Source: Fragilaria crotonensis (taxonomy: Eukaryota; Bacillariophyta; Fragilariophyceae; Fragilariales; Fragilariaceae). Taken from it: DNA of 51,822 nucleotides. This document shows, in pieces, positions 16,838 through 50,488 of the stretch; within the stretch, counting starts at the first letter, position 1; each line of letters starts with the position of its first letter. Where the stretch lies: NCBI GenBank assembly GCA_022925895.1, contig JAKSYS010000447.1:1-51822 (forward strand). The letters run 5' to 3'. The notes under the pieces are model-generated. The model did no database searches, was not told where the DNA came from, and worked only from the letters and a program-made list of their open reading frames with translations. The position numbers and the translations under genes were made by a program.

Positions 16838-16896
16838 CCTAAGGGGGCGGGCTTTTTTGTATATAAAATATCTTAAGATATGGTTACTTTTACTAC

Positions 16897-17006
16897 ATAC
16901 GTCGTGAGGGCCTTTTGTACGCCGGGAGGGACGGTTTTGTACGTCGAGAGGGATTTCACAGTACTGATTTCTACGTCGGAGGCTCGATTTAGTACGTCGG
17001 GAGTTA
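16897..17006 (+). promoter_or_regulatory. U1 motif array: five copies of TACGTCGGGAGGG-like site
   Basis: Sites begin near 16897, 16917, 16939, 16971 and 16992, so centre spacing is about 20, 22, 32 and 21 bp, whole turns of B-DNA. All contain ACG followed by a variant of TCGGGAGGG or TCGGAGG. The position 60 bp inside the unit start and upstream of transcribed-looking sequence suggests protein binding; the binding factor is unknown. Confidence 0.7.
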
Positions 17007-17179
17007 CGTAACATCCCCGTAGATTTATGTACCATGTCAAGGATTGTCACAAGAGCTTTGAACTTTGAAGTATGTAAAACTTGGTATGCTCACTTTTACT
17101 TTGCTGCCCATCTTTCGACTTGTACCATTATCACATCACCATAATGAAGACCACTTGATGATTTGGTTTTCATCCTCAT

Positions 17180-17460
17180 CAGGTTTATTTCGTTCGAAGA
17201 CCTCTTATACAACTTTCTTTGCTTTGATGTTGTCGCAACTACTATTGGTTCAGATTCAGAATTGGTCTTTTTTCAGCGAAGATACAGTATGAAATGCGAC
17301 GTTGGTCGCCATTCCAGTCATGACTGAAAACTCGAAATTCGTCGTCCTTATGGCTGTTTTCAGCCTCAGTGGGTACGTTTCGTACGAAGACCTGTTGTAC
17401 AACTTTCTTCGCCTTTTCATGTTCTCAACGTTCGTCGTTTCAGATTGAGAATCGTATGAT
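17180..17460 (+). other. U1 tandem exon/intron-like modules
   Basis: Two copies, about 191 bp apart, of a block holding GAAGACCT.TT.TACAACTTTCTT, then a pyrimidine-rich stretch and TTCAG (ending 17252 and 17443), then ATTNAGAAT and ATGAAATGCGA.GTTGGTCG. The second has GTACGT upstream (about 17373), so a 70-nt intron is plausible. The same architecture recurs in U4. Confidence 0.5.
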
Positions 17461-17967
17461 TTTTGCTTTAGATAAAGTATGAAATGCGATGTTGGTCGTC
17501 AAAGGATGCAGTGTTGCAGATAGATTCAATAATTTGCATGTGAGTGAACTCTGCTACTCGTACCGGTTGTAGTGTGAGTAAAAGTGTGTGTATTGGACGG
17601 TATTGTTTATGATCCAACTAAATACATACGGTAGTACGGTCGTTCCGTACTAGTAGCACGTCGCATTGTTTGTTTCATTACTACTATCATAGTGTCTATG
17701 GCTTATATCGCTTCGTTGCAAAATGTAGTGCAACTCGGGTAGGAAATGTACAAAATCCGTGACGTCTTCGTTTTATGCCAGGGGATGGCAGCCTCACACA
17801 TTGAAACAAGACGATCAAAACCACATAAAAAAGTTGTGCGGACCATGATATTGTAACGACAACTTCACCACCTTATACTTCGTTACTGCCGAGCCCTAAG
17901 GAGAAGGCCCTAAGGGGGCGGGCTTTTATGTCAATAAAATATCATAAGGTATGGATACTTTTATTAG

Positions 17968-18077
17968 ATACGTCGTGAGTGATTTTTGTACGTCGGGAGG
18001 GACATTTTTGTACGTCGAGAGGGATCCCCCAGTAATTATTCCTACGTTGGACGCTCAATTTTGTACGTCGGGAGTTA
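17968..18077 (+). promoter_or_regulatory. U2 motif array: five copies of TACGTCGGGAGGG-like site
   Basis: Sites begin near 17968, 17989, 18011, 18043 and 18064: spacing 21, 22, 32 and 21 bp, matching U1 almost exactly. The array lies about 115 bp upstream of the helicase start codon, so it is probably its promoter or operator. Confidence 0.7.
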
Positions 18078-19078
18078 CGATCGATCCACGTAGAATTCGG
18101 TACTATCGAAATTGGCGCGGCCCCCGACTGACTTTATTTCACAGGCACACAAACAACACGGCTCATCCATAACAAACTCATCATTCCCATCATGCCATCA
18201 TCAAGCACTCCTCCAACACAAATGGTTAACGGAAGTATCAGTCCTGTTGTTTCCGTCCGTCTTCCGGTGCAAAGCACCGAGATCAACCCCCTTGATCCTA
18301 TTCGAGAACTTTTCACTTTCTCACCATTCGGCCGTTGCTGCCGTCAATGCAATGCTCACAACAAGATTAACATGGAAGAGAGATCCATCCGCGATCACCT
18401 TAAAAAACATCACATGGACAGTAGAATGTCTACAGTCCGTTCCGTGTTGATCGAATTTACTAAAAGAGTACTCGTTGCGAAGGAATCCTGCACCATAGAG
18501 CCGTACCGTAGTGACAAAAAAAACTTATACAGGATATTCCTGCACTTGCGGTTCCGTCTTTCCGAGGAAAGATAATGCTCTTCGACATTGCAAAAATATG
18601 GGTTGCAATGAGTTGCAGCTGCAGAAAGTTGAACTCATCAAACTCTGCTGTGGTCGCTACATATCAGAAAATCAAGTTTGCTTGTTTTTCGAGGAGAGAC
18701 CAGCATCACACAGCAGTTTGATTATTGTGAAGCGAGAGGTGTTCTACAACCCTTTTTTCTGCAGAGAGAGAAACATGATCATACATACACTCATATGTAC
18801 ACCCCTCTTATAACCCAATGCGGTGGCGCAATGCGTTTTGCAATGAAAATTGAAAACGACTTTAAAGCCATCCATTCCCCACCAGATTCACTCAATGAGT
18901 CTATGTTGATAAAGATCCACGAGCTTGCCGAAATTTGGCTCCTGAACTTTGCCCAAATGAACATCATGATGGTCCCAGGCAATCTCCGTGCAGGATTACA
19001 AGAAACATTTGAAGGTGGAGAAGTCGATGATGTGTCACAACGCTGCACTTACGCGATGCAACATGATCCATCAACTTT

Positions 19079-19092
19079 ATTTATTGAACTCA
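19079..19092 (+). repeat. Left target-site duplication of retroposon copy B
   Basis: ATTTATTGAACTCA, identical to 19300-19313; belongs to the helicase coding sequence. Confidence 0.95.
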
Positions 19093-19299
19093 CGTGAAAG
19101 TATGCGGCGTGCAAAAGACAGGGCTATACAAGGTGTACGATCATTGCATTCTTATTTTCCGTCCATGTCTTAGGCGTTACGGCGTAAGAGAGCGTGTTAC
19201 TTGACAGTATTCGCACAGGATACTGTTGAGTCGTGTGAGTCGATTCTTCTTGTCTGTGAGGATAGCGGCAGCACGTAAAAAGATTTTAGGTTTTTTTTA
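19093..19299 (+). mobile_element. X-family short retroposon (copy B) inserted in the helicase gene
   Basis: A 207-bp insert flanked by a perfect 14-bp duplication, ATTTATTGAACTCA, at 19079-19092 and 19300-19313. It ends with the family tail CGGCAGCACGTAAAA, GATTTTAGG and eight T. Removing 221 bp (insert plus one duplicate) restores the helicase reading frame (LFIEL followed by KKLLS, as in the paralogue). A 14-bp duplication and simple 3' tail indicate target-primed reverse transcription by a LINE. GTGTGAGTCGATTC is mildly similar to a pol III B box. It is either a SINE or a 5'-truncated copy of the longer X element. Confidence 0.85.
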
Positions 19300-19313
19300 A
19301 TTTATTGAACTCA
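19300..19313 (+). repeat. Right target-site duplication of retroposon copy B
   Basis: ATTTATTGAACTCA, identical to 19079-19092. Helicase coding resumes directly after it. Confidence 0.95.
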
Positions 19314-20657
19314 AGAAGCTCTTATCTTTTGCATACCGACGAGGCCTTTTCGTCGCCAAACCTTTGGACCACCAAGATGCATTTTCAATCCCATACTTTT
19401 TGAAGGATCTGATGCTTGAAATCCCATCGTCAGTCCAATATCATCCCCTAGCCGTTGAGTTCTGCTTGATGTCGGGATTCCGTGTTCAAAAGGCAGATTC
19501 CAAAATCAAAATGATCTCATGCGACACTGTTTCCTCTGTTATTGCAAAGGTAGCATCAGTCTTGAAAGCTGCAATTTGTTCAGTTATAGTATGCTCATTC
19601 TCAGAAGACACTTTCACGATACACGGTCCCGCACTTATCACAACAGTACGAAAATCTCACGTTCTCCATAGTCTGTCACCGATGCTCCGTCAAATTCGCG
19701 AAATGCACCGTCGACTACCCAAACGGAGGAAAACAACACTCGATGAAACTGGAAACATTGTGGTAGATCAGTTTTCGTTTCTTTTTGACGACTGGTCCAA
19801 AATTGTTCCTAAGACTGTGCTCTTGATGAAGGTTGCGGTTTCAAATTTGGCAGATGGGATCTGGTGGGAGCCTGTGGTTGATGTTCTTACCGATATAAAT
19901 GTTCACGCGGATCGTGACACGGGTGACCTTTTTCTAGCAGATGTGAGTCCCGTGTGGAAACAAGGTTCTCTTTTTCCAATGGATCATTTTGACCATTTCA
20001 TGGCACTTTTAGAAATGTCTTTCCACGGTTTCGGCGGGGGCTCTGCTCGGTTGAACGAGCTTCGTGAACCTACAATGTTCAACTGCCTCTTCACAAACAG
20101 TACGGTGTACTACACACTGTCTTCCTTGAAAGGTTTCAACAGCTCATCACGACGCACTAGTAAGGAAATCGAACGCAAGCTACCACCCGTTATCTCCAGA
20201 TACTTCCTATTGTTTCGATCTCTGATCCAAACAAAAGCAAGTATGTTCACCAGCAACAGCAACATTAACAATCTCATGTTCCCTACAAGGGCGAATCCTT
20301 CTGCCATCCGACCGTCACACATCATCCGAGATCTCTTTTCGCTATCGTCAATTCCAAACATGACACAAGTTCGACACTTTTGGGCTGGTGTTTCCAACTT
20401 CGTGACCGGTGGTCACGACAAGCCCAACCACTTTTTGTCGTCGAATTCCATGGGAGCTTCCAAAATGGGTCATTCTTCATCAACTCATTCCTTTGCCTAC
20501 TCCAGCCAGCAAGTCGGTTCAGAAGAGGCACACTTCAACTCCTATCATTTTGCAATTGGTGACACCTCGTATCAAATATCCAAATTCACCGAAAGACTTT
20601 CCTTGGCAGACCTTCGCAATGCAGTGCGACTTCGGTTTCCAAATTTGGTAAGTCCGA

Positions 20658-21045
20658 GTAATGGTCACGACCACTATTTGTGTGTGCAGCAAAAAGAGTT
20701 GGTTGAGTTTGGGTACAGTGCCGAGTTCAAGAACAAGCCACAGCATTGCATTGCTCTACTCGCTCCAGGTGAGGGAAAGTCGGAGTCCTATATAATTCCA
20801 ACTATCGCTCGAAACCTTGCCAACCATAAATCAAAGACAATCATCCACATTTCACCATTTCGATTCTTGGCTGGGTATCAGTTTGCAATGGCATCAGCGG
20901 CATTCGAGATGCGTAATGGTCACGACCATTATTTGTCTGTGCAGCAGAAAGAGTTGGTTGAGTTCGGGTACAGTGCCGAGTTCAACAACAAGCCACAGCA
21001 TTGCATTGCTCTACTCGCTCCAGGTGAGGGAAAGTCGGAGTCCTA
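20658..21045 (+). repeat. 133-bp duplication of the helicase motif I segment
   Basis: 20658-20790 recurs at 20913-21045 with only a few substitutions. Both start GTAATGGTCACGACCA and end GTCGGAGTCCTA. The second copy ends in the CCTA that is also the start of U3. The repeat encodes the stretch from NGHDHYL to GEGKSES, so the translated remnant has two motif I regions. Confidence 0.9.
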
Positions 21046-21394
21046 AGGAGAAGGGGCTGTTTCTAGATAAAAAGTCTTCAAGTATGAATGCTTTTACTTG
21101 ATACCACTGGTGGTGTTTTTATTTAGGATCACATACCACCGGTGTAGATTTTCGTACCACTGGTGGGCCTTTTTAACTAGCAATATATACCACTGTTGGT
21201 ACCGAGCTCCATACTACCAATGCACTGTGAACAATCCTGGTAATGCTTTTTTATGTAGACAATTTTTCAAAAAACGAGTGAGTATTCCATTGGGACTCGC
21301 CATGCAAAAAATCTATCACACCCCATCATCATCATGTCTGCAAAAACAAATGCAACTATTGAGGTTGAACCAGTAATGCTTTTCACTTTCTCTC
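21042..21394 (+). repeat. Unit U3 of the CCTAAGG family (promoter plus gene start only)
   Basis: Begins CCTAAGGAGAAGGGGCTG. It is nearly identical to the first 350 bp of U8 (46234 onward), including the ATG of the helicase gene (MSAKTNATIEVEPV near 21333) and coding up to LFTFSP. It is then cut at TCTCTCCCT by the start of U4. Confidence 0.85.
21101..21220 (+). promoter_or_regulatory. U3 motif array: ATACCACTGGTGGT palindromes
   Basis: Sites begin near 21101, 21133, 21154 and 21186, with a degenerate fifth (ACTACCAATG) near 21212. Spacing is 32, 21, 32 and 26 bp. The core ACCACTGGTGGT is a perfect palindrome, unlike the U1/U2 motif, but the helical spacing is the same. Confidence 0.7.
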
Positions 21395-21453
21395 CCTAAG
21401 GGGGCGGGCTGATTTCTATATAAAATTATTTCGGGGATAGATTTTTTTACTTG

Positions 21454-21555
21454 ATACATCCGGTGGGATATTACTATGGGGAAACTTGCATCGGGTGTGT
21501 CTTTTTCAGCATTGGGTGGTACAATTACAAAGGAAGGGGTTACATCGGGTGGTAC
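21454..21555 (+). promoter_or_regulatory. U4 motif array: ACATCGGGTGGTA-like sites
   Basis: Four sites begin near 21454, 21487, 21509 and 21541: spacing 33, 22 and 32 bp. Variants are ACATCCGGTGGG, GCATCGGGTGTG, GCATTGGGTGGTA and ACATCGGGTGGTA. The motif differs from that of every other unit here. Confidence 0.65.
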
Positions 21556-21661
21556 AGAGCTTTGCCCATAGAGGTCAGTATGTTGCCGTCATCATGTCAT
21601 CAGCAGCACAAACATACATTGCGGCACCATAATCATCCACAACAAATGAGTTCTTGAATTG

Positions 21662-22289
21662 GTAAGTTTTGTTTAAGCGTCTGCTTATAAACATTCTTTG
21701 CAGTGGCTGCAACGCTCTCAATAATGCTCGTTTCAGATTTGTAATTGGAGCATATTTAAGTTAAGAAACGGTCGGAAGTATGAAATTGGTCGCCATTCTT
21801 CACGTCTTAACAACGACCGAAAACTCCCAGATCCGGCTTGCAAATCGTTGTTTCCTTCGTCACCTGGTAAGTCTCGTTTCAAAGTCTTCTACTAACTAGT
21901 ATTCTTCGTATTGTAATGTACTCAAAAACGCTCGCTTCAGATTTGTAATTGAGTGACTGGGTGTCATGAAATTCATACTCCAACCACGACCGAAGATTTG
22001 GTTTCCGGTTCGCAAATCGTTGTTTCGTTTCAAAGTCTTCTACAAACTATTCTTTGTATTGTAATGTGCTCAAAAACGCTCGTTTCAGATTCGCAATTGA
22101 GTAAATTTTAGAAAAGTAATGGTTGGAAATGCGAAGTTGGGTGTCATGAAATTCATGCTCCAACCCCAACCGAAAATTTGGTTTCCGGTTCGCAAATCGT
22201 TGTATCTTTTGTCACCTGGTGCATCTCCTTTAAAAGTCTTTTACTTAACATTCTTTGTATTGTTTTATGATCACCAGCGCTTGTTTTAG
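21662..22289 (+). other. U4 tandem exon/intron-like modules (four copies)
   Basis: Intron-like segments end in TTCAG or TTTAG at 21736, 21940, 22088 and 22289. The second (21867-21940, 74 nt) begins GTAAGT, has TACTAAC at 21890-21896 and ends CTTCAG, a textbook spliceosomal pattern. Exon-like blocks of about 130 nt share ATTTGTAATTGAG, GGTCGGAAATG and CCGGTTCGCAAATCGTTGT. No frame stays open across the blocks, so a spliced non-coding RNA or untranslated leader is more likely than a protein. Confidence 0.5.
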
Positions 22290-22476
22290 ATTTTTAATTG
22301 AGTAATCTCTAGCAAAGTTATGGTCGGAAATGCAATGAGGAGCATTGTTGGAGGTTCCGATTGTAGTAACATGCCGTGGCATCTCATACAAGTGAGTAAA
22401 AAAAATTCAGTACCGGTAGATAATCGGATAGTTAACTTTCTTACTGAATTAAGTCAAAAACCACTGAATTCAGTTA

Positions 22477-22707
22477 CCTAAGGAGAAGGGGCTGTTTCTA
22501 GATAAAAAGTCCTCAAGTATGAATGCCTGGTGGTACCGAGTTCCATACGACCAATGCAGTGTGAACAATCCTGGCAATGCTTTCCATTGGACTTGCTGTA
22601 TAAAAATCTATCTCACCCCATCCTCATCATGTTTACAAAAACAAATGCAATTGTTCTTGTGGATCACCCACCAGAGTTTGAACCGGTAACGCTTTTCACT
22701 TTCTCTC
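22477..22707 (+). repeat. Unit U5 of the CCTAAGG family, array deleted
   Basis: Begins CCTAAGGAGAAGGGGCTG like U3, but jumps from GTATGAATGC directly to CTGGTGGTACCGAG, losing most of the motif array; one motif remains. It includes a gene start (MFTKTNAIVLVDHPPEFEP near 22629) and is cut at TCTCTCCCT by U6. A second copy is at 38259-38489. Confidence 0.8.
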
Positions 22708-22735
22708 CCTAAGGCAAAGGGGTTCGAACTGGTTA
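22708..22735 (+). repeat. Unit U6 stub of the CCTAAGG family
   Basis: CCTAAGGCAAAGGGG start, only 28 bp before X copy C begins. The continuation is seen after the second copy at 38490. Confidence 0.75.
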
Positions 22736-23091
22736 TAAATTTACTCGTATCGTTTCTACGTACATAAGAGCACATCTAAAAGGATGAACGAAGGGTTTCC
22801 AGAACTCTTTCGTATCGACTCGACCATTGCCAACGGGACTTTATACTCCCACAATGATGCCAAAACAAACACAACAAAGAATGAGCGGAAGGGAGGCGCA
22901 AAAACTCATCGGTTGGATGGTGAATTTTCACCATCATCGTTCAATTCCTACACACTCTCATGGTATTCTCTCTACACAGTTGATCCACCCATTGTTGCAG
23001 CGAAATGTTCAGGAGTGAACGATACTGTGCACCTACCTACTACTGGTACCGTGAATGTACCTACCATGAGCAGCCTTCCTACCGTGCACCT

Positions 23092-23247
23092 GGCATGTCC
23101 GAAGATCGGGAAAGGACGGGCAGTCGCCATCAGACAGACGAACACGAGACACAGACAGACGAACACCACGACACAACACAACACAAGATACGAATTGCTC
23201 ACAATCCGAACGAACTCGAATCGACAAAGACACTACTCTAGTTAATC
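23092..23247 (+). repeat. Split direct repeat A1 of the Ngaro element
   Basis: Starts GGCATGTCCGAAGATCG and ends CTCTAGTTAATC. It matches A2 at 29454-29607 except for a 2-bp gap near the start. Confidence 0.9.
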
Positions 23248-23553
23248 TGGCCTCTCCCCCGACCCGACTTGAACCACAGACGCAATGGAGGGGTCAGACG
23301 ACGCTCGCTCACCGATGACGATGACCTTGACGTGGTTGGACGTTTTCAGGAAGCTCGACCAGTGGGAGGTCGTCGAAAAGCTCAGCGCTTTGAATTCGAA
23401 GACGAACTCGGTCAGTACAAATTCTACAGGATTCGTACACTTGTGCTCTCCGGAAGTCGCCCACCTTATGGTAAACACGCACGGAGTCATCCGACTCTTT
23501 CACCACTTCCACCACGACGCTGACGATGGACTCAACGACGGGACGAACGCCCT

Positions 23554-25483
23554 TTGGGCACTGATGGGGCTGGCGGCTTCGCCGCCGCCATGGCGGTCGA
23601 CACGAAACAGGTCGTAGAGCGACACATCGGAACGCCTTTTGATTGGTCGAGGATGCTCTCGTGGAATTCTACGTCGGACGTACTGGCGGCGATCAATGAA
23701 TCTCTGACGACACGTGCCCAGGTGTCAGGCGTCAGCACCGGAGCCACGCGCGAAGCCGAGCCAGCCGGCACCCTGCCGACTGCAACCAGAGGACGACCGA
23801 AGAAAGGAAGCGGAACGAAGCACCGGGCGAAGCCAAGCAAGCCAGTCGAAGCGAGCGAGGACGACACAGACGACGTCACGGTCGTCGGGTTCACGATGAA
23901 GCCCACCGTCCCGGTGCCGGCCTTCATCGCAGCCGCCATCATGGACACTTACGTCACCGCGCCAGAGGAGCTCGCCCTACTGATCGTCAACGCCATTAAA
24001 CAGAGAGCGAGCGAGGACCCAGACCCGTCCAGAGCAACCATCCGCGCGGAGGCAGCCTCTTACATCCCGCGGTGGGTCCTCAGCGTAGCGGTAAACTCGA
24101 GGAGGACCCGGGACCGACAAAGCGAGGTGGCGGCATCAAACGCATACTCCAAACGATCGGACGAATGGGCGAAATCGCTACACCTCAAGCATCTGGCGGT
24201 CAGAGCTAGGAGCCTCATTCGGACGGACGACCATGCCAGCACGCCAGGACGCACAGAGGACGCCATTCGAAACCTGTCAACGTTACTGGAGCGACAGGCA
24301 GCAAACGCAGCGACCTCGTCCCCCCAAACGTCGAAGACAGGCTTTGACTCTTTCCCGCCGTCGACGAAACGAATGGTCCTTTTCGTGTCCGAAAGGGACG
24401 CCGACAGGATGATTCGCAGCCGCCCGGTCCAGTCTTTCTCGGACATCCTGACGCTTAGCAACGTGGCCTACGTACAAAACCACATCCACCACTTCTTGAG
24501 GAACACCAAAGGTCGAGACGCGTTCATTCCCATGGGCTTCTGCGCCGCAATCCGCACCGCTTCTTTCACGGCCGACACACCTGACCGGCCAGGGGCCTTC
24601 AGCCTCTTCTGTTGCGGTCCCCAGACGTTCGCCCGAGCAGCAGCGATCGGGCGAGAAGCCTCTGATCACGCCAGCACCCTTGTGCAAATGCAACTCAAGA
24701 CGACCGACACGACCACGGGCTTCTCGGAGAAGGACATCAAGAGCATGACAAAACTCAACTTCACGGTGCCGAAAGATTTTCACGAACTCGCGCGGCTTAT
24801 CGAGAACATGAGCGGAGTGCTGGAGCTCCTTTCGGAGCCAATTCCCGCTCACACACATGTTGGACGAGTGGAGCCGTTTCCTGACCAGGGCGGTCGGCTC
24901 CACACTGGCGACGCCCGCCAGCTAGCGCACGCTGACCCTCAGCCGCGTGCAGGTTAGGTTGGTTCATCGAAAACGCATGCAACAATACCTAGTTCTCTGC
25001 GCTGGAGTCGAACACGAGGACGAGATCAACCCAGCACTCCTAGAATTCAGGTCCACCCGGCAGCAGTTGGAGGACGGCGCCTTTGTCTTCCCGGCCTGCG
25101 ACTTCCTCAAGGAGCGGCTGGGACGTGGAGTCGACCAAAAGGGCGACTCGCAGCCTGTAGCCGCCGCCGGGAGCGCTCGAGCCGGACGTCGCGGGCAACC
25201 CGCGGACGCAGTCACAAACCCACAGCAGGACCTTTTCCCGAGAGACGCGAACGACACTTGGCAGGTGTTCCTCGATCACGTCCGAAGTGGAGGACCGATC
25301 CCGAACATGTGCTGCAGGTGGCACCTAAACGGGAAGTGCGTCAAGAGCTGTTTCTTGAGCGCCTCGCACGTCGCCCTCACGACCGAACAGACGACCGCCG
25401 TACGAGCGTGGATAGAGCAGTGCCGGGCGCGCATGCGCCGCCCTCGTCCGACGCGACGCCGCCCAGCAAGAAAACAAAATTAG
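23554..25483 (+). pseudogene. Ngaro gag-like protein with CCCH-type finger, frameshifted
   Basis: First part 23554-24957 (467 codons), then a frameshift near 24880-24950 into 24947-25483. No enzyme motif is seen; position ahead of RT indicates a Gag-like nucleic-acid-binding role. A Cys/His cluster near 25310-25365 (CCRWHLNGKCVKSC then H five residues on) resembles a CCCH finger. The N-terminal third is Ser/Thr/Pro-rich with a basic patch (RGRPKKGSGTKHRAKP). GC-rich codon use sets it apart from the AT-rich surroundings. Confidence 0.6.
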
Positions 25484-25962
25484 GACCCTCTGCATCTGCT
25501 TACTTCCAGCCCGCCTTCGTCGCACAGCCGTCGCAATGGGCGTTCGACCAGGAACGGTCGACGGCCGAGTTCCACAACAGACGCCACGTAGGACGCCCCG
25601 GACTTTATCGGAATCTGCCGCCCGAGACAGTCCCGCGGGAACCCACGCGCACGAACCTTCTCGCCCCGCCACGTCGCCGACGCCCCGCATCTCGCCAGCC
25701 CGCGACGACCCGTCACGAAACGAAGTCGGGCCTGAGCGCTACGCTCCCGCCCTCGACTCGCCACCGACCGACCACCCGTGGCGCGCGCATTGTCGCCCGG
25801 AGACGCCCACGACGCGCCGACATCAGCCCTCGCAGACACGCCACGCCCGCTTCCCGGTAAGTTCCCATCGTTGGTGCCATTGCCGACGATCCCGCTCCCG
25901 AACGTCGACTCGCCGTTCCCACGACTCCCGAACCACGCCTGGCCGATGCCCTTGCCACTATT

Positions 25963-28366: not shown

Positions 28367-28369
28367 AAC

Positions 28370-29993: not shown

Positions 29994-30007
29994 ACCTACT
30001 GCGAACC

Positions 30008-37477: not shown

Positions 37478-37486
37478 TCGTAGACT

Positions 37487-38698: not shown

Positions 38699-38758
38699 CC
38701 CTTAGGGGGCGGAGTTCAAACTACATTTATTTTATTTGTGAATGATTTTGTTTACTTG

Positions 38759-38856: not shown

Positions 38857-39017
38857 TATGGAATTCATCACACTCTCTATCGCCCTTGTAGTGTGAAAAT
38901 CAGTGCGCCAATTTTCAAATGAAAGCCATATCATTCATCCCTCAACTCCATTCTCAACAACCACAACAAACCATGGACTTTAATGTGTCTCAGACGACAA
39001 GCACCAAATGAAAGGCA

Positions 39018-39374
39018 ATGGTCCTTCAAGACATTCCACAAGAGGATTCAGACCCCATGCTTCCTATTAGGGATCTTTTCACATTTTCTCCTTTTGGTTT
39101 ATGCTGTCGGCAATGTAAAAATAATTCAATTATTCAGCGTGATGAGCAATGCATCTCCCGGCATTAAAAAAACATGGTATGGCCAGCAGAGTTGCTTTGG
39201 TTTGTGCAACTTGAAATTGCAAAGGCCTCAGGATCCACTGAATCATACCGAAGCGACAAGAATACCTACACTGGTTATTCCTGTAGTTGTGGGATTGTTT
39301 TTCAATTAAGAATAGACAACGCACTTCGACATTGCAAAAGAATGGGTTGTGACGCATCCAAACTGCAAAAACTT
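39018..39374 (+). pseudogene. N-terminal fragment of the zinc-finger helicase gene in U7
   Basis: From ATG 39018 (MVLQDIPQED) the frame reads LRDLFTFSPFG-type sequence with CRQC and ISRH, the same N-terminal finger as U2 and U8, then meets a stop and shifts frame. A second piece gives ESYRSDKNTYTGYSCSCG and ALRHCKRMGCDASKL. The rest of the gene is absent because another element starts at 39375. Confidence 0.7.
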
Positions 39375-39900
39375 CGAAATAAATTCCGAGTCTTGTCCAA
39401 ATTTCTACACGCAGTGGTTCCCCGGGAAAGAGAACAAGGTGGCAGACATGCACCTCGCCGGAGTTCCAAGTGAGACGATTCAGATGGTGGGGAGGTGGCG
39501 AAGCCAGACGTTCATGAGATACCTCAGAATTCAAGTGCCAGACTCGACACTCGGAGTAGCCGCACGCATGACGAGTCGACAATCTTTCTATACAATCGCC
39601 CCAGATTCTGCGGACGAACGACAACCGGAAAATGGCGGAAACCAGGTCGACTCACAATCGCGCGACGGACCCCCGCTAGATAACTATCACGGGACCGACA
39701 CCGCGAGACGAACCAGGAGAGAGAGACAAAACTATTAGGACCAGATTCCGATGCCATCTATTTATTTCTACTAGTCTCACGAGCACAAAAGAGAAACGAG
39801 AATGACCACAGACAACACACGAATCGACGCGACAGTGCGCGAGACAACGGTACGATGAAACCACAAAGAAGACGACTCATCCGACTCGGAATTTATTTCG
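39375..39900 (+). mobile_element. 0.5-kb deletion derivative of the Ngaro element with inverted ends
   Basis: 39405-39450 matches 27843-27889, and 39451-39883 matches about 28973-29405. The join lies at the shared word CATG. The right end repeats the B terminus after a further 30-bp loss between GACT repeats. The left 30 bp (39375-39404) are the reverse complement of the B terminus. So 17-bp inverted repeats bound it: CGAAATAAATTCCGAGT at 39375-39391 and its complement at 39884-39900. It keeps the recombinase H-X2-R-distal and Tyr region only. Confidence 0.85.
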
Positions 39901-40059
39901 ATGCCTGTTGCTTGTCCCCAGCAGCAGGTACTTGTACTGTGCTGTTGATATGTGAGCAAGAAAAGTTGCTCCTGTATGATAGTCTGCATTGCATAATGTA
40001 CAATGTGCAAAGTACTCCGAATTGATCTTCAGACGTGCTCCAAGTACTTATGCATGAAT

Positions 40060-41568: not shown

Positions 41569-41599
41569 TGGGGGAATTCGATTTTGTTGTGAGTTGTGA

Positions 41600-43491
41600 C
41601 GTTGTGACCGCCAAACCGCTGACTATGGCTGGATGCATATTTTGGGTACACGAGGTAGCTCTACGTAGGCCTAGTATTAATTTTTTTATTTCCGACGTCA
41701 AAAGTATACCAAGGTTACGGTACAGCTACTGAATTGGTGATTCTAATCGGGTTGTCAGTGCAGCTTTTGTTCATCTAGCCGAAATAGACCCCAACTGTGG
41801 CAATGAAGAAGTAGCTAGTCTAGTCGATGTACAATATAATGTTCGAGAGTTTCAGAACCCGCGACGTGAGCGCCAGCGTGACGAGATCTGCACCAACAAA
41901 GCAAGGTAATGGCAACAAGATGGTGAGCAGTCATGAGTCATGACCAGGAGGAATGAGCCCACAGTCGAACACCAAGAAAGGGTATGCTGAAATCAAAGTG
42001 ATTCCATCTCATCCGCCATGCTCTTGATTGCCCGGCTTGTTGGATAAATATAGTGAGGTCTGCTTTAAAGAAAGCAGCATTATGATTGTACGCAACATGA
42101 TTGCAGGCGACCGCACCCAACAAAATACATCCGAGATGTGCCATAGTAGCATATTCGTTCAAATTTCTTGGCAGGGTGAGGCAGCCACTCAGAAAGTAGC
42201 ATTTGATCTTTCAATCAACACCAATCAATTTGAAGTTGTTGACAATTAGGTTTGTATTGGGCAGCAGGATTGTGTAGTTCATGCCAATCTTGTATGAGAT
42301 ATCTTGGCTGGTCATTGACATATCCTGACAAATCGAATACTGGCCAAGAAGTCCGGTTATTCAAATTGATATTGACATATATCAGCCAATTCTGTCTCTC
42401 CCGATTCATGAACTTGAATGGGCAGAGAATTGGCAACTTCTGGATAGGTTTTACAGCAAAATCTCGAAACTTGCGCACCACCGCCGTGTCGGGTGACAAA
42501 TGCAAGTGAAGGGCTCCCAGCGTCAAGAAGTTCCTCACACGCGGTGTCCATGACTCGAGTCCTGCAGGATGATGATGGGTGATTCCTTATCTCTTAGCAG
42601 TGACAACAGATCACGAGATGCCGTGATGCATTGATCCAGCGATGGAACCAGGATTGGGCTCTAGTAGCCAAAACGTTTGGAGCTGCTTGCTAGCACCATC
42701 AAGGAGCACACCAACAACAGAGGCTTCATCGGTGACAGTATCAAATTCATCTTCCCTGTTAGTCTGCTATGACCTTCATCTGTATCCAGGCAATGCATGC
42801 CCAACTCATGGCACTTCACATGTCACGTCGTGAGAGCAAGCCATCGGTCGACACATCGACAGCCAACAAATTGATCCAACGTCTGGGAGCAAAAGTTCCG
42901 AGGAGTGACATTCTGTGAGCCTCTTCCGTCCTTATTTTGAAAGGAAAAAGTAGGAATGGTGAAAATGCTTCCAAGAATGTTCCAAACGGAGTTCACCACG
43001 TGTTCGCCTCGGGTGGGGATGCTCTAAGGGTTCGAATCTGGATCCATCCCAAGATCCACTGTCATCGTCATCATGGTTCGTGACATTTGGTATGACTGAC
43101 ACCAACACTCAATTGGGCAACATGCTGGTAACTGTTCTCTTCATCAGACAACGTTTCTGGAATCACAAGAGAAGAAGGTGCTCCCTTTACTGCCATCTCC
43201 TGGCGCGTGATCAGTAGAAATTGGAATGGTCGTGAATTTATCAAAACTGCGTTTTCTGTGGAGCTTCAATGTGCTTTCACTCATGAAGAGCAAGGAGATG
43301 ATGTAGCTTCAAGAAGCTCCACGGAATATCAAGAATTGGTTGAGATATTCACTGCCATGGTCAATGGAATGAAAAGCAAGTGATTTGGCGTGTAAATCAA
43401 TTTTCAATATGCGAGCGCTAAAAAAATAGTGGTACTAGTACGTAGAGCTCTACCTCGCGAATCCTCTTCGTGAATCCAGCCATACAGGGCA
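41600..43491. other. Mostly unassigned region between the GT23-like gene and U9
   Basis: No convincing gene. One minus ORF at 42215-42538 has protein-like composition and is listed separately. The right end (43451-43486) holds a segment also found, inverted, upstream of the WbsX-like gene. Confidence 0.4.
42215..42538 (-). CDS. Unrecognised ORF, possible gene remnant
   Basis: A 107-residue ORF with a natural-looking composition (FKFMNRERQNWLIYVNINL, PVFDLSGYVNDQPRYLIQDW). Upstream minus-strand sequence in the same direction also looks coding but contains stops, so it may be the C-terminal end of a decayed gene. No family recognised. Confidence 0.25.
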   Translation of the reverse strand: MRNFLTLGALHLHLSPDTAVVRKFRDFAVKPIQKLPILCPFKFMNRERQNWLIYVNINLNNRTSWPVFDLSGYVNDQPRYLIQDWHELHNPAAQYKPNCQQLQIDWC

Positions 43492-43777
43492 CCTAAGGAG
43501 AAGGAGCCGTTTCTATATAAAAAGTCTTCAAGTATTAATGCTGTTACTTGATACTACTGGTGGTGTTTTTATTTATTAGGATCACATACCACCGGCAGTG
43601 TTGATTTTTGTACCACTGGTGGGCCTTTTTAATTTGCAATATATACCACTGGTGGTACCGAGCTCCATACTACCAATGCAGTGTGAACAATCCTGGTAAT
43701 GCTTTTTTATGTAGACATTTTTTCAAAAAAAGAGGGAGTATTCCATTGGACTTGCCATGCAAAAAATCTATCACATC
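43492..43777 (+). repeat. Unit U9 of the CCTAAGG family
   Basis: Begins CCTAAGGAGAAGGAGCC and is close to U3 and U8. It is cut at ATCACATCCCT, about 10 bp before the helicase ATG seen in U8, by U10. The palindromic array at 43551-43658 has spacing like U3. Confidence 0.85.
43551..43658 (+). promoter_or_regulatory. U9 motif array: ATACCACTGGTGG sites
   Basis: Sites begin near 43551, 43587, 43610 and 43643. ATACTACTGGTGG, ATACCACCGGCAGTG, TACCACTGGTGGG and ATACCACTGGTGGT. Small indels alter the U3 spacing slightly. Confidence 0.65.
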
Positions 43778-43935
43778 CCTAAGGAAAAGGGGTTCAAAGT
43801 AGATAAAAAATCCTCAAGTATATATATTTTTACTTGAGGCCTCCGGAGCAATTTTATTTAGAGATTTTAGCTCCGGAGCCAATTTTGAACCTCCGGAGCT
43901 GACTGTTTACTTAATGAAATGTGCATTCGGAGCTA
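43778..43935 (+). repeat. Unit U10 of the CCTAAGG family
   Basis: Begins CCTAAGGAAAAGGGG. Array of CTCCGGAGC palindromes at 43841, 43871, 43891 and a variant at about 43926 (spacing 30, 20, 35 bp). The right boundary is unclear; the sequence beyond 43940 shows no family similarity. Confidence 0.7.
43841..43934 (+). promoter_or_regulatory. U10 motif array: GCTCCGGAGC palindromes
   Basis: Three exact CTCCGGAGC sites plus ATTCGGAGCT, arranged with the family's spacing of about two and three helical turns. A different motif from all other units in the window. Confidence 0.65.
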
Positions 43936-44095
43936 CACAGGGAGGCACAGAGCTCATCGTGTGTAGTTTTCTGGAAGGTCCGGCAATACACGCTTAGTCG
44001 TGAATCAAGGTCGAATTCACGCTGGCCGGAGGCGAACATCATTTCCGTTCTGTGTCTGGCTGGTGCTAAACTGGTTATGCCAGCGTCATCGTCGT

Positions 44096-44366
44096 TTTGC
44101 TGACACTTGCTGACGAAAAGACAGATCTGCTGACATCCGCTGACAAAAAACGAATTTGCTGACGTCTGCTGACGAAATTCGAATCTGCTGACATTTTCTG
44201 ACATATGATGACGAAAACGAGTTTTTTCCAGTACAAAAGCTACGGTGATGCTGACATCTTCTGACGTTTGCTGACGAGAATCAAGTTTGCTGACATTTGC
44301 TGACGAAAAGCAAAGCTGCTGACATTTGCTGACGAAAAAGAAATCTGCTGACATTTGCTGAACCTT
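44096..44366. repeat. Degenerate repeat of CTGACATTTGCTGACGAAAA
   Basis: About nine imperfect copies of a roughly 20-30-bp unit with paired TGAC words. TGACG-type cores are bZIP-like, so a regulatory array is possible, but it may be a plain minisatellite. The minus-strand ORF over it (CQQ-rich) is a repeat shadow. Confidence 0.75.
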
Positions 44367-44649
44367 GCCAGCTCGAATGATACGACAAAGATCCTAACAA
44401 GCTCTCATCACGCCGGCCGGTCATTGGCTGGCGCGCACATCCTTAAGGTAAATCTGTTAATCGCGAAACGTGCTTGGGCCGGACCTTCCTGGTAATAACT
44501 TCTTGCGTAGCCACTTTTCCACCAAAGAAGTGGAGTATGACATCCAGTAATCTAAATACGTACAGTGTCATACCGCTGTAACGTACAATACTGTAGTTTT
44601 TAAACGAAATACAGTTGATTCATCATACTGTTGTCTGCATTTGTCACAT

Positions 44650-45368
44650 ACAAGTACCTACTAGTACAAGTACCTACTACCGTATTTCACGGAGATTTGT
44701 ACCCCGCGCATTCCTGTACCCACCCCTCCCAAAATTATGCACATTTTCGAACCACTCGACTCAAAAATGAACGTCCATTTGTTATCCTTTGGCAGAAAAA
44801 TCCTGGCATTTCACCGAAACGTCAGGTCATTTGAATTCCACTCGATGAAAGCTAGTTATGCATGTATAACTCTAATGATCAGAAGACGAGTTTAAATATT
44901 CATTTTCCTTTTTTTCCGTAGTCAGCCCGACATAAATTTTTCACGGATTCCCTTTATCCATCTGACATTTTCGATGAAAATTTGGTGGGATTCCGGAACC
45001 CCTCGATGAACATTTGGTCGGTACAAATCTCCGTGAAATACGGTAGTACAAGTACCTACTAGTACAAGTACCTACTAGTACAAGTACCTACTAGTACAAG
45101 TACCTACTAGTACAAGTACCTACTAGTACAAGTACCTACTAGTACAAGTACCTACTAGTACAAGTACCTACTAGTACAAGTACCTACTAGTACAAGTACC
45201 TACTAGTACAAGTACCTACTAGTACAAGTACCTACTAGTACAAGTACCTACTAGTACAAGTACCTACTAGTACAAGTACCTACTAGTACAAGTACCTACT
45301 AGTACAAGTACCTACTAGTACAAGTACCTACTAGTACAAGTACCTACTAGTACAAGTACCTACTAGTA
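44650..45368. repeat. 16-bp minisatellite AGTACAAGTACCTACT, split by a MITE
   Basis: About two copies at 44650-44679 and about twenty uninterrupted copies at 45044-45368, nearly all identical. The MITE at 44680-45043 separates the two parts without phase change. Confidence 0.95.
44680..45043. mobile_element. 364-bp MITE with 24-bp TIRs and TA duplication
   Basis: Left end starts CCGTATTTCACGGAGATTTG (24 bp, to 44703); the right end (45020-45043) is its exact reverse complement. Both sides are flanked by TA (44678-44679, 45044-45045). Removing the element and one TA restores the minisatellite phase. No coding capacity. The TA target suggests mobilisation by a Tc1/mariner-type transposase, but its TIRs differ from those of the element at 994-4534. 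Confidence 0.9.
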
Positions 45369-45497
45369 AAAAAACTAGAATTCAAATTAACGTGCTATCG
45401 CTACGCCCAATACGAGAAGACGTTCGACCCGCACGGATAGGCACTGTACTGGAGTATACAGTAGCTATCGTCGCTTGTTCAACCTGAGAAGCCACCT

Positions 45498-46233
45498 CTA
45501 GCGCACCCCAAAGTAGTCTCGAATCGACCTCATACCAGTAGTCGCTCTCCGCTTAACTTGGCGATAGCTCTCGCGAAAGATCGGGGCATTCATTGCCAAC
45601 CAATTCTGAGTAACCCACAAGGAATGCTGTTCATGTTCCGTCGCATCAGCGTGTAATAACTTCTGAACATGTGTTTCATAAAGTGTGCGGTGTCGGTATA
45701 TCTCCGAGAGTTGTCGCCTCACCCTCGCGAGTAGTTGTCTCCAGCCTGGTACGTTCTGCCATGTCCGTGCACTTCGATTCCTTTGTTTCCACAACTTATA
45801 CCACTGTTTCCACAAAGTAAAATCACGCTCGCTTGCCATGTTGAACTTTGCCCTGCCGTCGTTTCTTTGCCGTGTTGAGTCAAATGATATTGTCGCTGTT
45901 GAGATTCCCAAGCCGCACTAAACCGCCTGAGTAGTACTTGTGCCCATCCGATCTTGTTTTGTTGAAGAACAATTTCGCAATGTAGGGTGATACCATCTGG
46001 ACAAAGGATGATGTCGTTGTCGGAAGAATCAAACCATTGACGCAACCCATCCAGCATTAATTCACACAGCATCGGTGATGTATTCGAGTGAATGAAGGAG
46101 TCTCGGAGTCGCGCCAGGAGCTGTGTCCGCCATTCGCCACGAGTGCTGTGCTGACATCGGATGATGTGAAAATAATCCTCGTCGAGGGAACCGCACATCG
46201 CGCACTTACGATTCCCCCCGTCGAATTTGTTTG
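45498..46233 (-). pseudogene. C-terminal fragment of a reverse-transcriptase-type retroelement protein
   Basis: Two minus frames (45719-46198 and 45498-45911) join after a frameshift near 45890. The start has a zinc-binding pattern, CAMCG...HIIRC, followed by QQNKIGWAQVLLRRFSAAW and a Trp-rich WKQWYKLWKQRN. This layout (CXXC...H...C, QN.IGW, W..RN) is typical of the C-terminal domain of non-LTR-like RT proteins common in diatom genomes; this is family recall, not a search. The rest is cut off at 46234 by the start of U8. Confidence 0.5.
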
Positions 46234-46292
46234 CCTAAGGAGAAGGCCCTGTTTCTAGATAAAAAGTCTTCAAGTATGAATGCTTTTACTTG

Positions 46293-46413
46293 ATACCACT
46301 GGTGGTGTTTTTATTTAGGATCACATACCACCGGTGTAGATTTTTGTACCACTGGTGGGCCTTTTTAACTAGCAATATATACCACTGGTGGTACCGAGCT
46401 CCATACTACCAAT
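46293..46413 (+). promoter_or_regulatory. U8 motif array: ATACCACTGGTGGT sites
   Basis: Sites begin near 46293, 46325, 46346 and 46378 (spacing 32, 21, 32 bp) plus a degenerate ACTACCAATG near 46404. The pattern is the same as U3, about 110-230 bp upstream of the helicase ATG. Confidence 0.7.
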
Positions 46414-46524
46414 GCACTGTGAACAATCCTGGTAATGCTTTTTTATGTAGACAATTTTTCAAAAAAAGAGTGAGTATTCCATTGGACTCGCCATGCAAAA
46501 AATCTATCACACCCCATCATCATC

Positions 46525-49500
46525 ATGTCTGCAAAGACAAATGCAACTATTGAGGTTGAACCAGTAATGCTTTTCACTTTCTCTCCCTTTGGCCTATCCT
46601 GTCAGCAATGTACAAACAATTTCACTATTCAGTTGGATACAAGATGCATCTCCCGTCATCTGAAAAAACATGGTATGGACAGCAGCATTGCTACTGCTCG
46701 TTCTCTTTTCAACACATTCCAAAAAGAACTTGAAGTTGTGAAGGCGTCTGGCACAATGGACCAATACCGAAGTGATATGAAAACTTACAGTGGTTATTCC
46801 TGCCTCTGCGGTCAAAATTTCAATTCAAGAAAGGATAGTGCACGTCGACATTGCACAAGGTCAGGTTGTGATCCTTCTAAATTGCTGAAGGTCAACCTCA
46901 TCAAGCTCTGTTGTGGTCGATATGTATCAGAATCTCGTTAAGTTTTTTTGAGGATCAACCACCGCGTATCAGGGAGCAATTTGATTACTGCCAGGCAAGA
47001 GCGGCTTTGCTTCCCTTCCTTCCACCAAGGAAAAGCAAGATCATACGTACACTACATGTACACCCCATCATTGCTGGTTGTGCTCGTCCACAAGACTTTG
47101 AAAGAAAGATTAAAATGACTTCATTTCTATCCATTCTCCACCGAGTCAAACTCTTGAGTCAGTTCTGATCAAAATTCATAACCAAGCTGAAAATTGGCTA
47201 TTAAATTTTGCACAGAAGAATATTTTGATGGTGCCAGGGAATCTCCGAGCTGGACTTCAAAATTTTGATCGTGGTGAAGTCAATGATGTTTCACAAGGAA
47301 AGACCTATACAATGCAGCATGATCCAACCAGCTTACTACCTGAATTGAAGAAGCTTCTATCCTATTCGTTCCGCAAGGGCCTATTTGCATCAAGTGGTTT
47401 TGATGAAAGTGATCAATTTGCAGTTGCATATTTTTTGAAGGATTTTTTGCTTGAAGTTCCACCATCAGTTGCCACGCATCCCTTTGTGGTGGAATTCTGT
47501 CTCATGTTTTGTATCCGCTCAGGAATCAAAAATCTCTCTGATATCCTGTGACACGGTGTCGTCTTTATTCGCCAAGGTAGCATCGCTTCTGAAAGCAGCA
47601 GTATGCTCCGTCATCTGTTCTTTTTCAGAGCAGTCATCCACTCATTCTGGAGATTCGCTTGTGTCATCTGTTCGCAAGGCTCCTGTACTACATATTCTTT
47701 CACCAATGGTTCGACAAATAAGAGGCACGAACGACTACCAAAAGGCAAAAACTATGATTGACTCAGGTGGAAATATCATTGTTGACCAACATTTCCATAC
47801 GACATCTGGTCACGCATAGTTCCCACAGCTGTCACCTTGATGGGAGTCATTAACTCATTTGGCTGATGGTTCCTGGTGGGAGCCTGTGGTTGATCCATCA
47901 ACATTTGTCAGAATCCATGTCATGATGACACGGCAGACATTTCATTGCTCGATGTCACCCTGTTGGAATGTTGGACTTTCTTTCCTTGTTGATCAGTTGG
48001 ATTGTTTTATGGCACTGTTGAAGATGGCATTTCATGGTTTTGGAGGAGGATCTGGCAAGGATGAGAGAGTTGACAGAACCGACTATGTTCCACTGCGTGT
48101 ACAGCAATGATGCTGTTTATTACTCCATGACGTCACTGAAGGGTTTTAACAGTTCTTCGTCGTCGGTTCAAGAAAGTCGAGCGAAAACTCCCTCCTGTTA
48201 TCACTCGATACTTTTTGTTGTATCGATCTCGTCAATGCGAATGTAAATCTTTTGAGCAATCCGATTCCTTTGATTTTTCCAAAGCGGAGAACACCTTCAA
48301 ATTTTGGTGTTCCAAATGTGATCAGGAATATTTTCAATTTGGATTCATCACCCGATATGCGGCAGATTCGACAGTTTTGGGCTTGTGTATCGAATTTCGT
48401 TACTGGTGATGATGAGGATGGAAAGGCCTTTTTGACGTCCACGGCAAGCTCTGTGGCGGCATCAAAAATGGGGCACTCCAAGATGACACATGGTGTTGCT
48501 TATTCAAGCAAACGACTCAGGGCTGAGGAATCACACTTCAATGCTTATCACTTTGCCATCGGGGACACATCATATGAGATGTCAAAAACCAATTGTGCAA
48601 ACTCTCATTGGGTGATATTCGGATGGCAATGTCACCGGGTACCGAAGGCTATTTCATCAGATGGTCACAACTATCTTTCATCTCAACAGAAGGAACTTGT
48701 TGAGTTTGGATATGGTTGTCACGATGACTCAATGCAGATGCAACAACATTGCTTTGACTTCTCCCCTGGTGAAGGAAAATCTGAAGTTTTCATTATTCCC
48801 ACCATTGCAAGACGGATCGGCAATCAAAGAAGCAAATGATAATTCATGTGTCGCCCTATAATTTTTGGCTCTCTACCAATCCAATAATGCAACCACTGCT
48901 TTTGACAAAGTCGGCTTTGGAACAAGCATTTCCACTTGCATCTTCACTGGCGGGGACATCAATGTTGGATTGTTACCCGATGAGCTTTCCAACAAGGAGG
49001 ATCTCCCAAACATTCTCTTCAACCTGGACGCTCTCTTCAACTTGTTCACGTTTCATTTTGAAACATTCAAGTCATGGATTGACGTCATGGATAAGATTGT
49101 TATTGATGAGGTCCATACTTTTCTTACAGAATTAAGCTTTCGGGAGAAGTATCAGGTTTATTGGAGACTTGCTGTTCTTGGGATTCCGATTGTGGCATTG
49201 AGTGGATCAGTCCCTTTGTTCATTCTTTCTAAATTTGCAATGCGACTTTGTTTGTCTCGTGACAAACAGATGAATGACATCAAGATTATTCACGGCGGTC
49301 CTTTTGGACATTTTCCTCATGGATTCCGAATCAAATTTTCAGTCACACCGAGATACATACACCAAGTTGCCAGTTTTGCTATTCATCGTGTGCATGAGGG
49401 TGTGGGAGCAGTTCATATCTTTGTTGTTGACAAGTGTGATGGAGAACTTCTTGAACAGCGCATTACATCCAAATCTGTAAATTGTGTCTTCATATCGTCT

Positions 49501-50488
49501 GATACCCCCGCAGAAGATTTGAAGGCTGTTGCTAAAAAATGGGGCATGGGAGGATTCGACATCCTGATATCAACCTCGATTGCATTAGTTGGGAATGAAA
49601 ACCCTGCTTGCCGATCGTTGTTTGCGCTGGGTACCTGTTCGATGCTATGCAGGTTATTCAAGGGTTTGGTCGCCTTCGACAGTACATGAGAATTCCTAGC
49701 GGCCAAATCTTCTTTGCGGCACCAGAAGCCTTGTCAAACGAAGAATCAAGGACGATGAACAGCGATTCACAAGGCTTCTGAATGAAAACCTTGTATCTGA
49801 GGGGATCATGCACTTTTAGACAAACAATGACTTCGGGCGGTGTACGTGACTGGACCATGGATGCAGCATCAGAAACCGTGACTGTGCATTGAAGGTTATG
49901 TCACAGTCATTTGGAAAGAGATGGAGAATTGCGGTGCTTGCCATTTTGTCGCCACATTCCAACCCATAATGCTCAGGCTGAGGCCACCAAACGGATGGCA
50001 ACTGAAAGGCGAAACGAACAAGCGACTGAACGAGTCCTTCAAAAGCTTTGTGTTGTCTTGCGGCAACAAGACTTATTGTCGTGGAACTCCTTATTGAATG
50101 GGAAGGGCAGCAAATCACTGCCTGAGAATAAAGGTTGTTGTTTCCTCTGGAAAACTGTTATCAATGCGGTGTGAGTTCTCATGACCGCCAGCTTTGTTTT
50201 GATAAGACCTATTTGAATAATGTGGCTTGTTGTGAGTGTTGGGTTTTCAAAAAGGTACCAGGCTCTAAACATCACGCAAAGACAGATTGTGAAGTAAAGG
50301 GTAGGTTGAGGCGGTTGTTGTCACATCATTTTGTTAACACCAAGGTTAAGGGATCATTCAAGGACTTCCTTGAGGGTATCTACACTTCCTCGACCTCGTT
50401 CTGTGAGTTCATGGCTGTGATTGATAGTACTTACAATACAAAAATAATTCTATTTAGAGAAGAGCTAAGTTGTTGGAAGGCACTGTAA
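46525..50488 (+). pseudogene. Zinc-finger/RecQ-like SF2 helicase gene, longest copy, multiply frameshifted
   Basis: Starts at ATG 46525. Residues 16-49: LFTFSPFGLSCQQC then ISRHLKKHG, a C-X2-C...H-X3-H finger (Cys26, Cys29, His45, His49). A second Cys/His element (YSCLCGQNF...RRHC) is near 95. Middle blocks (MVPGNLRAGLQ, WWEPVVD, HFNAYHFAIGDTSYE) match the U2 gene. Helicase motif I SPGEGKSE at about 48766, the DEVH box in VIDEVHTF at about 49104, motif III LSGS, motif V LISTSIALVG, and motif VI QGFGRLRQ at about 49660. The C-terminus (50135-50488) has CYQCG, CCECW and H/C pairs suggesting a zinc domain. At least eight frame changes make it a pseudogene. Finger plus RecQ-like core plus Cys-rich tail resembles fungal telomere-linked helicases, an inference from architecture. 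Confidence 0.75.

Follow-up and report, generated by a model that had tools for sequence, protein, structure and literature searches.

Telomere-facing units with a single defined end in Fragilaria crotonensis as probable mobile chromosome ends

The window analysed here, the entire 51,822-bp contig C389 (JAKSYS010000447.1) of the Fragilaria crotonensis genome assembly (62.1 Mb, 881 contigs), raises the question of what kind of element could leave behind a series of units which begin with the same word, CCTAAGG, point in the same direction, and stop at varied places on the right. An initial annotation made from the window alone had seen in this a pattern of chromosome-end growth or telomere capture, and this is supported by the rest of the genome, where units face the telomere on all four contigs found to end in one and a 10-kb unit running from CCTAAGG to the telomere caps two unrelated arms. 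The units are one-ended, face outwards, and join other DNA at CC or CCT, referred to here as CC(T), with the remainder of the interrupted DNA missing beyond the join. We think it probable that they are telomere-carrying mobile chromosome ends which replace the ends of other arms, by means of an enzyme that we infer.

Left ends in the window and across the genome

CCTAAGG occurs 13 times in the window against 3.1 expected, a count reached by none of 100 shuffles, with 12 of the words on the forward strand and the thirteenth provided by the unit at 38700, which begins CCTTAGG. All of the unit starts annotated initially are present and share one direction, including a 14-bp stub at 17895. Nine window left ends and one from contig C588 can be aligned over ~74 bp, beyond which each class has its own short repeats (21–22 bp in three left ends, according to Tandem Repeats Finder). 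Units adjoin exactly from 21042 to 21395, from 22477 to 22708, from 38259 to 38490 to 38700, and from 43492 to 43778, and a copia pol gene (16837) and a reverse transcriptase (RT) gene (46233) each break off at the precise start of a unit, as can be seen by comparison with a single uninterrupted copy of either gene at another place in the genome. The latter (45719–46234, RT-like by eye and without a Pfam match) is a broken target and no part of a unit. The suggestion that each unit ends where the next begins holds for these adjoining pairs but not for the long intervals, as 22740–38258 and much of 38700–43491 and 43778–46233 are other elements and genes and do not always represent one unit. 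Nor are all of the starts separate, as 22134–22739 and 37915–38521 form a segmental duplication (99.7%), later split by a copia long terminal repeat (LTR) element, in which 22477 and 22708 recur as 38259 and 38490, so that the window holds 11 joins and not 13. The array had also been taken to end near 50488, but the 63-bp repeats near 50479 are internal to the last unit and the match to contig C578 extends past them to the contig end.

A left-end pattern search of the genome found 88 places on 30 contigs and none in the reversed control. This number is a lower bound, as the pattern demands CCTAAGG and misses classes, with a left-end profile (run on 33 sources and then on 9 sources) adding CCTTAGG and other units; one of the 88, C199:61917, has a word unlike the others and may be false. 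Every contig with at least two units has them in a single orientation (18/18 contigs, 76 units; ~10^-17 if orientations are independent), and no random or mixed distribution was seen. The outermost unit points to the nearer contig end in 16 of the 17 contigs of known length (the exception is C783, and 13 contigs were left unassessed), as does the outermost piece of the helicase part of the unit gene in 16 of 19 such contigs (49 matched pieces on 20 contigs). A chance origin of the pattern is ruled out by the shuffles, the reversed control, and the uniform orientation. Left ends are near-invariant in the sources scanned with the profile, where no match with an E-value below 0.01 starts beyond model position 2 and CCTTAGG is the only variant added. 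No inverted copy of the 74-bp profile was found in the window or in the unit stretches scanned on both strands, although no dedicated search was made for short inverted repeats and a very short one is possible.

Telomere arrays, located using two exact telomere patterns, are terminal on four contigs (C23, C490, C592, and C754) and internal on C411 and C427, and the units which face the terminal arrays are listed in Table 1. On C23 a short internally deleted unit (~0.8 kb) gives way directly to TTAGGG(G) repeats. On C411 a unit that breaks off within its gene (by eye) precedes, in this order, 27 bp of outward-sense telomere repeats, 429 bp of other DNA, and another unit, and from sequence these repeats read as a putative trapped former chromosome end. 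The full unit order is CCTAAGG, helicase gene, cargo genes, satellites, and telomere, and as a full unit extends to the telomere, the truncated right ends described initially are explained; no fixed right end was seen. The C578 relative of the last window unit runs ~1.7 kb further into satellite without reaching telomere repeats. We note that C427 has two internal telomere-repeat blocks in opposite orientations with non-telomeric filler (L080 and L081, at C427:70101–71000 and C427:96951–97400), and that the pattern found no left end on this contig.

Whole ends are found as copies on unrelated arms. C490 and C754 have 10,023 bp in common at 99.6%, beginning at base 1 of CCTAAGG and extending as far as the telomere-proximal satellite, and their flanks (1.26 kb and 2.06 kb) have no same-sense match between them; here an intact unit does adjoin a telomeric array, as had been anticipated. 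The window unit at 46234 and C578:30202 match from base 1 onwards, over 5,672 bp (98.1%), and their 200-bp flanks (the RT-like gene and the neighbourhood of an SRA-domain gene, respectively) show no extended match to each other. C23:1482 and C122:30232 have one flank and one join followed by different units (a 1,578-bp alignment at 96.7%, comprising 1,500 bp of flank, the last 250 bp of which are identical, and ~77 bp of left ends). When units were assigned to lettered classes allowing at most five differences, C121 and C411 were found to have the series E-F-F-C in common from the inside (the first word is one base apart and labelled R on C411) before they diverge, with widely differing spacings, and C588 and C783 have T-169-L-243-U/W in common (the last word one base apart) before they diverge. 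As C588 and C783 also differ on the inner side, other exchange between ends occurs too. One might suspect chimeric joins of subtelomeric repeats in a draft assembly of 881 contigs, but 88 uniformly oriented left ends on 30 contigs, the two common series, and one identical join present on both C588 and C783 make an assembly artefact very improbable.

The join site and the lost remainder

We regarded a join as readable where an unbroken flank homologue had ≥93% identity or a short flank was matched exactly, and took the closest usable homologue (n = 16, Table 1). CC is present at the join in each of the 16 targets, with CCT in 12 and CCA, CCG, CCA, and CC plus a mismatch in the others, and the chance of such a rule for the first 14 joins (14 CC, 11 CCT) is ~10^-18. 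It should be noted that only four target letters are known for C269:57523 (CCTA), that the 38700 target was read from where a match ends and that of C592:14300 from 94 bp at 93% (L022), and that the C490:10243 target is from L049 (96%), with L020 (99%) having an indel just before the join and CCTCTACC one base off. Four joins with distant homologues only were left out of the 16: window 22708 (= 38490), with CCT in a 66% homologue; C754:10445, with CCT in the closest repeat copy (85%) and CTT or AAA in others; C271:28667, with CCA or CCT at 82–85%, CCC or CCA in others, and no CC in L023 (74%); and C84:82099, with CCA (76%). The flank-homologue search scored 40 of 144 candidates, among which the flanks of C23:3690, C588:14661, C269:57353, C578:30202, and window 17895 gave self-matches only. 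Those of C588:14249 and window 22477 matched only copies carrying the join, the 43492 flank ends in a common repeat ~4–7 bp short of the join and leaves the target unreadable, and the C592:13728 flank, a tandem repeat, was excluded.

The remainder of the broken target had no close match distal to the join in all six tests (window 16838, 21042, and 46234, the last covering 5.6 kb of distal DNA only, and C754:12075, C490:10243, and C592:14300), and a target resuming beyond the unit was thus not seen, which leaves no second flank in which a target duplication might be recognised. The latter three contigs were read from join to telomere, and have only 63–70% matches to the remainder, within the new unit's own gene; at 21395 and C551:33308 the test is uninformative, with a close copy of the same gene downstream. 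These results bear on the possibility that the units are ordinary DNA transposons nested in one another, with their right ends and the displaced flanks situated outside the contigs, a reading which the fixed left end, short target match, and transposon-like gene would suit. We reject it as highly implausible, as the broken target is seen to resume in none of the six tests, including those on the three contigs read to the telomere, and orientation is single on all multi-unit contigs.

Host repair offers another explanation, in which a donor end is cut or nicked at the left end and then joined, or copied by break-induced replication, onto a broken arm exposing CC(T), with the unit protein at most cutting or unwinding DNA. 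The short shared bases at readable joins, the missing distal remainder, the copying of a whole end up to the telomere, and the helicase in the unit are all compatible with this. However, the donor end is almost constant (the pattern hits are uninformative on this point, but the profile could have revealed variation and found none beyond model position 2), and free-end joining should yield trimmed ends and joins without shared bases, while none of the 16 readable targets lacks CC. We consider host repair an unlikely source of the joins.

The unit gene and a proposed mechanism

The C578 copy of the unit has an open frame of 1,254 amino acids, with a second frame continuing the gene. The C-terminal part of this frame is a DEAD/Helicase_C-type helicase (PF00270, E 7e-10) matching PF00270/PF00271 of superfamily 2 (SF2), and by eye a C..C...H...H finger can be seen in the first part of the protein and clusters of cysteines in the tail. 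Across 27 rows, five residues are conserved in the clean rows at each site (R539 in 23/23, K566 in 21/21, R645 in 20/20, H680 in 19/20, and Y689 in 21/21, using C578 numbering; these counts exclude, at each site, one to five rows with frameshifts or too much divergence and one to four rows without data). Their spacing of 27-79-35-9 is like that of XerD except for one longer gap, where we take the catalytic residues of XerD, whose letters we checked in its sequence, to be spaced 24-75-23-9; in Cre the spacing is 28-91-23-9. A search of solved structures with the unit protein returned general helicases only, and searches of viral and prokaryote collections found no relatives.

The DNA that separates the helicase gene from the telomere contains a gene on the opposite strand whose HxD...H pattern is invariant (C592, C578, and C551). 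This gene is presumably dioxygenase-like, judging by eye from the motif, and solved-structure searches gave no relevant match for it. Another unit on C578 has an SRA-domain gene (PF02182, E 1.3e-11), and we observe that this frame (L049:1379–2161) lies on the strand opposite to the helicase gene, ~40 bp before the next unit start at L049:2202. C592 and C754 have large frames without a named family in the interval between helicase gene and telomere. Pfam matched no reverse transcriptase among 10 scanned frames of C578, C592, and C754 (with several C592 and C754 frames not covered), none was apparent by eye in the list of C578 frames, and the frames scanned by Pfam have no HUH Rep domain.

This search bears on whether the units could be added from an RNA template, with an antisense RNA ending ...CCUUAGG serving as template for reverse transcription primed by a CC(T) 3' end, in the manner of HeT-A or Terminons, and right ends representing 5' truncations. 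A fixed end inward, a variable end outward, and a 2–3 nt priming match would be expected of such a process, but no RT was found in those frames, the main gene is in the opposite sense, and the 10-kb copy is intact to the telomere; we consider RNA-templated addition improbable. The comparison with HeT-A arrays made in the initial annotation is therefore apt for the geometry, but fails in that the unit gene runs outward, the frames scanned lack an RT, and the join is at internal CC(T) and not at telomere repeats. Membership of a HeT-A-like retroelement family was rejected for want of an RT in those frames.

We return to the units as mobile chromosome ends. A unit would comprise the fixed left end (CCTAAGG and short repeats), a gene for a zinc-finger, recombinase-like, and helicase protein, cargo, satellites, and telomere repeats, with no right end of its own. 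The left end of a copy would be joined to CC(T) on another arm, the distal part of that arm would be lost, and the arm would then be capped by the telomere of the unit. Erosion, telomere healing, or the next unit would shorten an earlier unit from the right and so leave a head-to-tail stack of left ends. A site-specific enzyme is indicated by the constant donor base together with the CC(T) rule, and the unit's own protein is the obvious candidate; this protein may make the join by a tyrosine-recombinase-like strand exchange at the 2–3 bp CC(T) overlap, and copies may spread by exchange and segregation or by replication from the join.

A number of observations weigh against this reading. The overlap of 2–3 bp is short compared with the 6–8 bp spacer of known tyrosine recombinases, and also with the 4–6 bp repeats of Cryptons (PMC3212892). 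As many other residues of the protein are also invariant, little can be concluded from conservation by itself. The histidine usual in HxxR is replaced by T or R, and the five-residue pattern was chosen after looking and is held by 11 of 20,000 shuffles. Four copies of the middle part found no match in Pfam, PHROGs, or NCBIfam at E-values up to 10. Comparisons using hhalign gave a probability of 0.13% against E. coli FimB, FimE, XerC, XerD, IntS, and a cut IntA, and 0.05% against the DIRS recombinases of this genome, which is no better than the 0.1–0.4% scored by two other parts of the same protein, and a single-sequence AlphaFold2 model has a pLDDT of 32. At C490:10243 five loci at 91% read TCT, and more distant flank homologues often lack CC(T) at the join, as expected if only the closest resemble the target. 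Finally, three helicase pieces are wrongly directed, with C12:497 pointing inward on a 308-kb contig, C347 to the farther end, and C841 to the marginally farther end. Identification as a tyrosine recombinase by profile has no support from Pfam, PHROGs, NCBIfam, or hhalign, and in view of this, the shuffles, and the choice of pattern after looking, we refer to the protein, from its residues, as recombinase-like and not as a recombinase.

Window features and comparison with known systems

Features of the window, readable joins, and telomere-facing units are listed in Table 1. In addition, a 133-bp stretch of the helicase gene in unit 3 is repeated 255 bp apart (20658–20790 and 20913–21045, 96%), with the second copy ending at the 21042 join. 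A retroelement at 22740–30577, DIRS-like by eye, has split repeats (29156–29453 = 29696–29993) and a tyrosine-recombinase-like frame with 153 matches in the genome. It is flanked on both sides by a 692-bp segment (22048–22739 and 30578–38521, the second copy split by the copia element), and unequal exchange between two DIRS insertions would explain this duplication. At 45044–45368 there are about twenty exact copies of the 16-bp repeat TAGTACAAGTACCTAC, and a 98% copy of this array lies just inside (on the centromere side of) the unit at C592:13728. A long frame at 1742–3382 on the reverse strand is DDE-transposase-like by eye only.

Table 1. Coordinates of window features (positions in C389), readable joins, and telomere-facing units.
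Feature	Position	Strand	Remarks
Unit 1	16838–17894	+	CCTAAGG left end, 22-bp subterminal repeats, cut at next unit; CCT at join in unbroken copia copy
Unit 2	17895–17908	+	14-bp stub of CCTAAGGAGAAGGC unit; relative at 46234 goes on as CCTGTTT
Unit 3	17909–21041	+	Left end and start/middle of zinc-finger/helicase gene; cut within gene; remainder not found distally
Open frame	19301–21046	+	Five conserved residues (R, K, R, H, Y) and first helicase motif; PF00270 match (E 0.013) falls short of curated cut-off
Unit 4	21042–21394	+	Cut at CCTTTGG of unit's own gene start
Unit 5	21395–22476	+	
Unit 6	22477–22707	+	Left-end region with internal deletion
Unit 7	22708–22739	+	Broken off after 32 bp
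Segmental duplication of 22048–22739	30578–38521	+	Split by copia LTR element, LTRs 30670–31084 and 37501–37915
Duplicate of unit 6	38259–38489	+	
Duplicate of unit 7	38490–38699	+	Goes on into unit 7 repeats
Unit 8	38700–43491	+	CCTTAGG variant, gene start, then other DNA
Unit 9	43492–43777	+	
Unit 10	43778–46233	+	Then repeats and part of RT gene (by eye)
Unit 11, outermost	46234–51822	+	Left end, zinc-finger/helicase gene (broken frames), 63-bp repeats, part of opposite-strand gene; runs off contig
Cargo gene	50964–51803	-	Relatives have invariant HxD...H pattern
Readable joins, window	16838, 17909, 21042, 21395, 38700, 43778, 46234		17909: 14-bp stub only
Readable joins, elsewhere	C269:57523, C269:58092, C551:31157, C551:33308, C588:14492, C508:701, C490:10243, C754:12075, C592:14300		
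Telomere-facing units, C23	1482, 3690		
Telomere-facing units, C490	10243, 12938		
Telomere-facing units, C592	13728, 14300, 23077		
Telomere-facing units, C754	10445, 12075, 12757, 15168, 16386		

Several known systems resemble the units in part. Trypanosome expression sites exchange whole telomere ends, and bacterial telomere resolvases are recombinase-like enzymes acting at ends, but the former rely on long homology and the latter make hairpin ends. Helitrons have an HUH Rep domain with an SF1 Pif1 helicase, whereas the unit helicase is SF2 and the frames scanned by Pfam have no Rep domain. We know of no fungal telomere-linked helicase (TLH) gene that is mobile with a defined inner end; these genes, as far as excerpted sources describe them, are likewise telomere-proximal, and are likened to the units by position and not by protein homology. 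Head-to-tail arrays at chromosome ends, with the fixed end inward and the variable end outward, are familiar from HeT-A/TART.

Excerpts of two papers describe the same arrangement for Terminons, MoTeR, and FoTeR (PMC6431247, PMC12857005). In these accounts Terminons are mostly 5'-truncated by short telomeric repeats, lie head to tail with the 3' end attached to telomere repeats, and, like the units, have cargo genes and telomere repeats at truncations (PMC6431247), and FoTeRs have the 5' end toward the terminus, often with telomere-linked helicases (PMC12857005). All three attach to telomere repeats according to these excerpts, whereas the units join at internal CC(T) and carry their own telomere, and telomere-attached retroelements encode an RT, which was not found in the unit frames scanned. 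Yeast Y' elements, in the portion of PMC13177704 consulted, are likewise subtelomeric, have a helicase gene, form arrays, and spread to other ends, there by homologous recombination including break-induced replication and often with telomere repeats between copies; in contrast, in the two pairs examined, unit copies begin at one exact base with unrelated flanks. Cryptons, as excerpted from PMC3212892, have no inverted repeats, to which the units compare in that no inverted copy of the left-end profile was found in the stretches scanned, and like the units they have short shared bases at the join; the units also have tyrosine-recombinase-like residues; the fungal and stramenopile Cryptons described there mostly have two ends, with 4–6 bp terminal direct repeats and a proposed movement as circles, whereas the units have one end and a telomere, no right end before that telomere, and no target remainder in the six tests.

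Among the systems compared here, none unites a single defined end with a telomere in place of the other, joining at an internal CC(T), and loss of the target arm, and no description of such an element was found in open PMC full texts (a set without subscription papers and most bioRxiv preprints). The units could represent a new class of mobile DNA with the telomere as its other end, in which a self-encoded, tyrosine-recombinase-like end exchange at a 2–3 bp CC(T) amputates the target arm at each jump, a proposal that we advance tentatively and rate at slightly less than an even chance. If it is true, chromosome ends themselves can be selfish mobile elements, and this would give selfish DNA a new means of spreading, with each jump trading a piece of an arm for a working telomere and the element retained by the end that it caps. 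Fast subtelomere turnover, gene loss, and stacked histories would then be explained without homologous recombination or reverse transcription, and the question of why helicase genes adjoin telomeres in unrelated eukaryotes would become testable. A site-specific enzyme able to swap chromosome ends would also be a useful tool for trimming and capping chromosomes.

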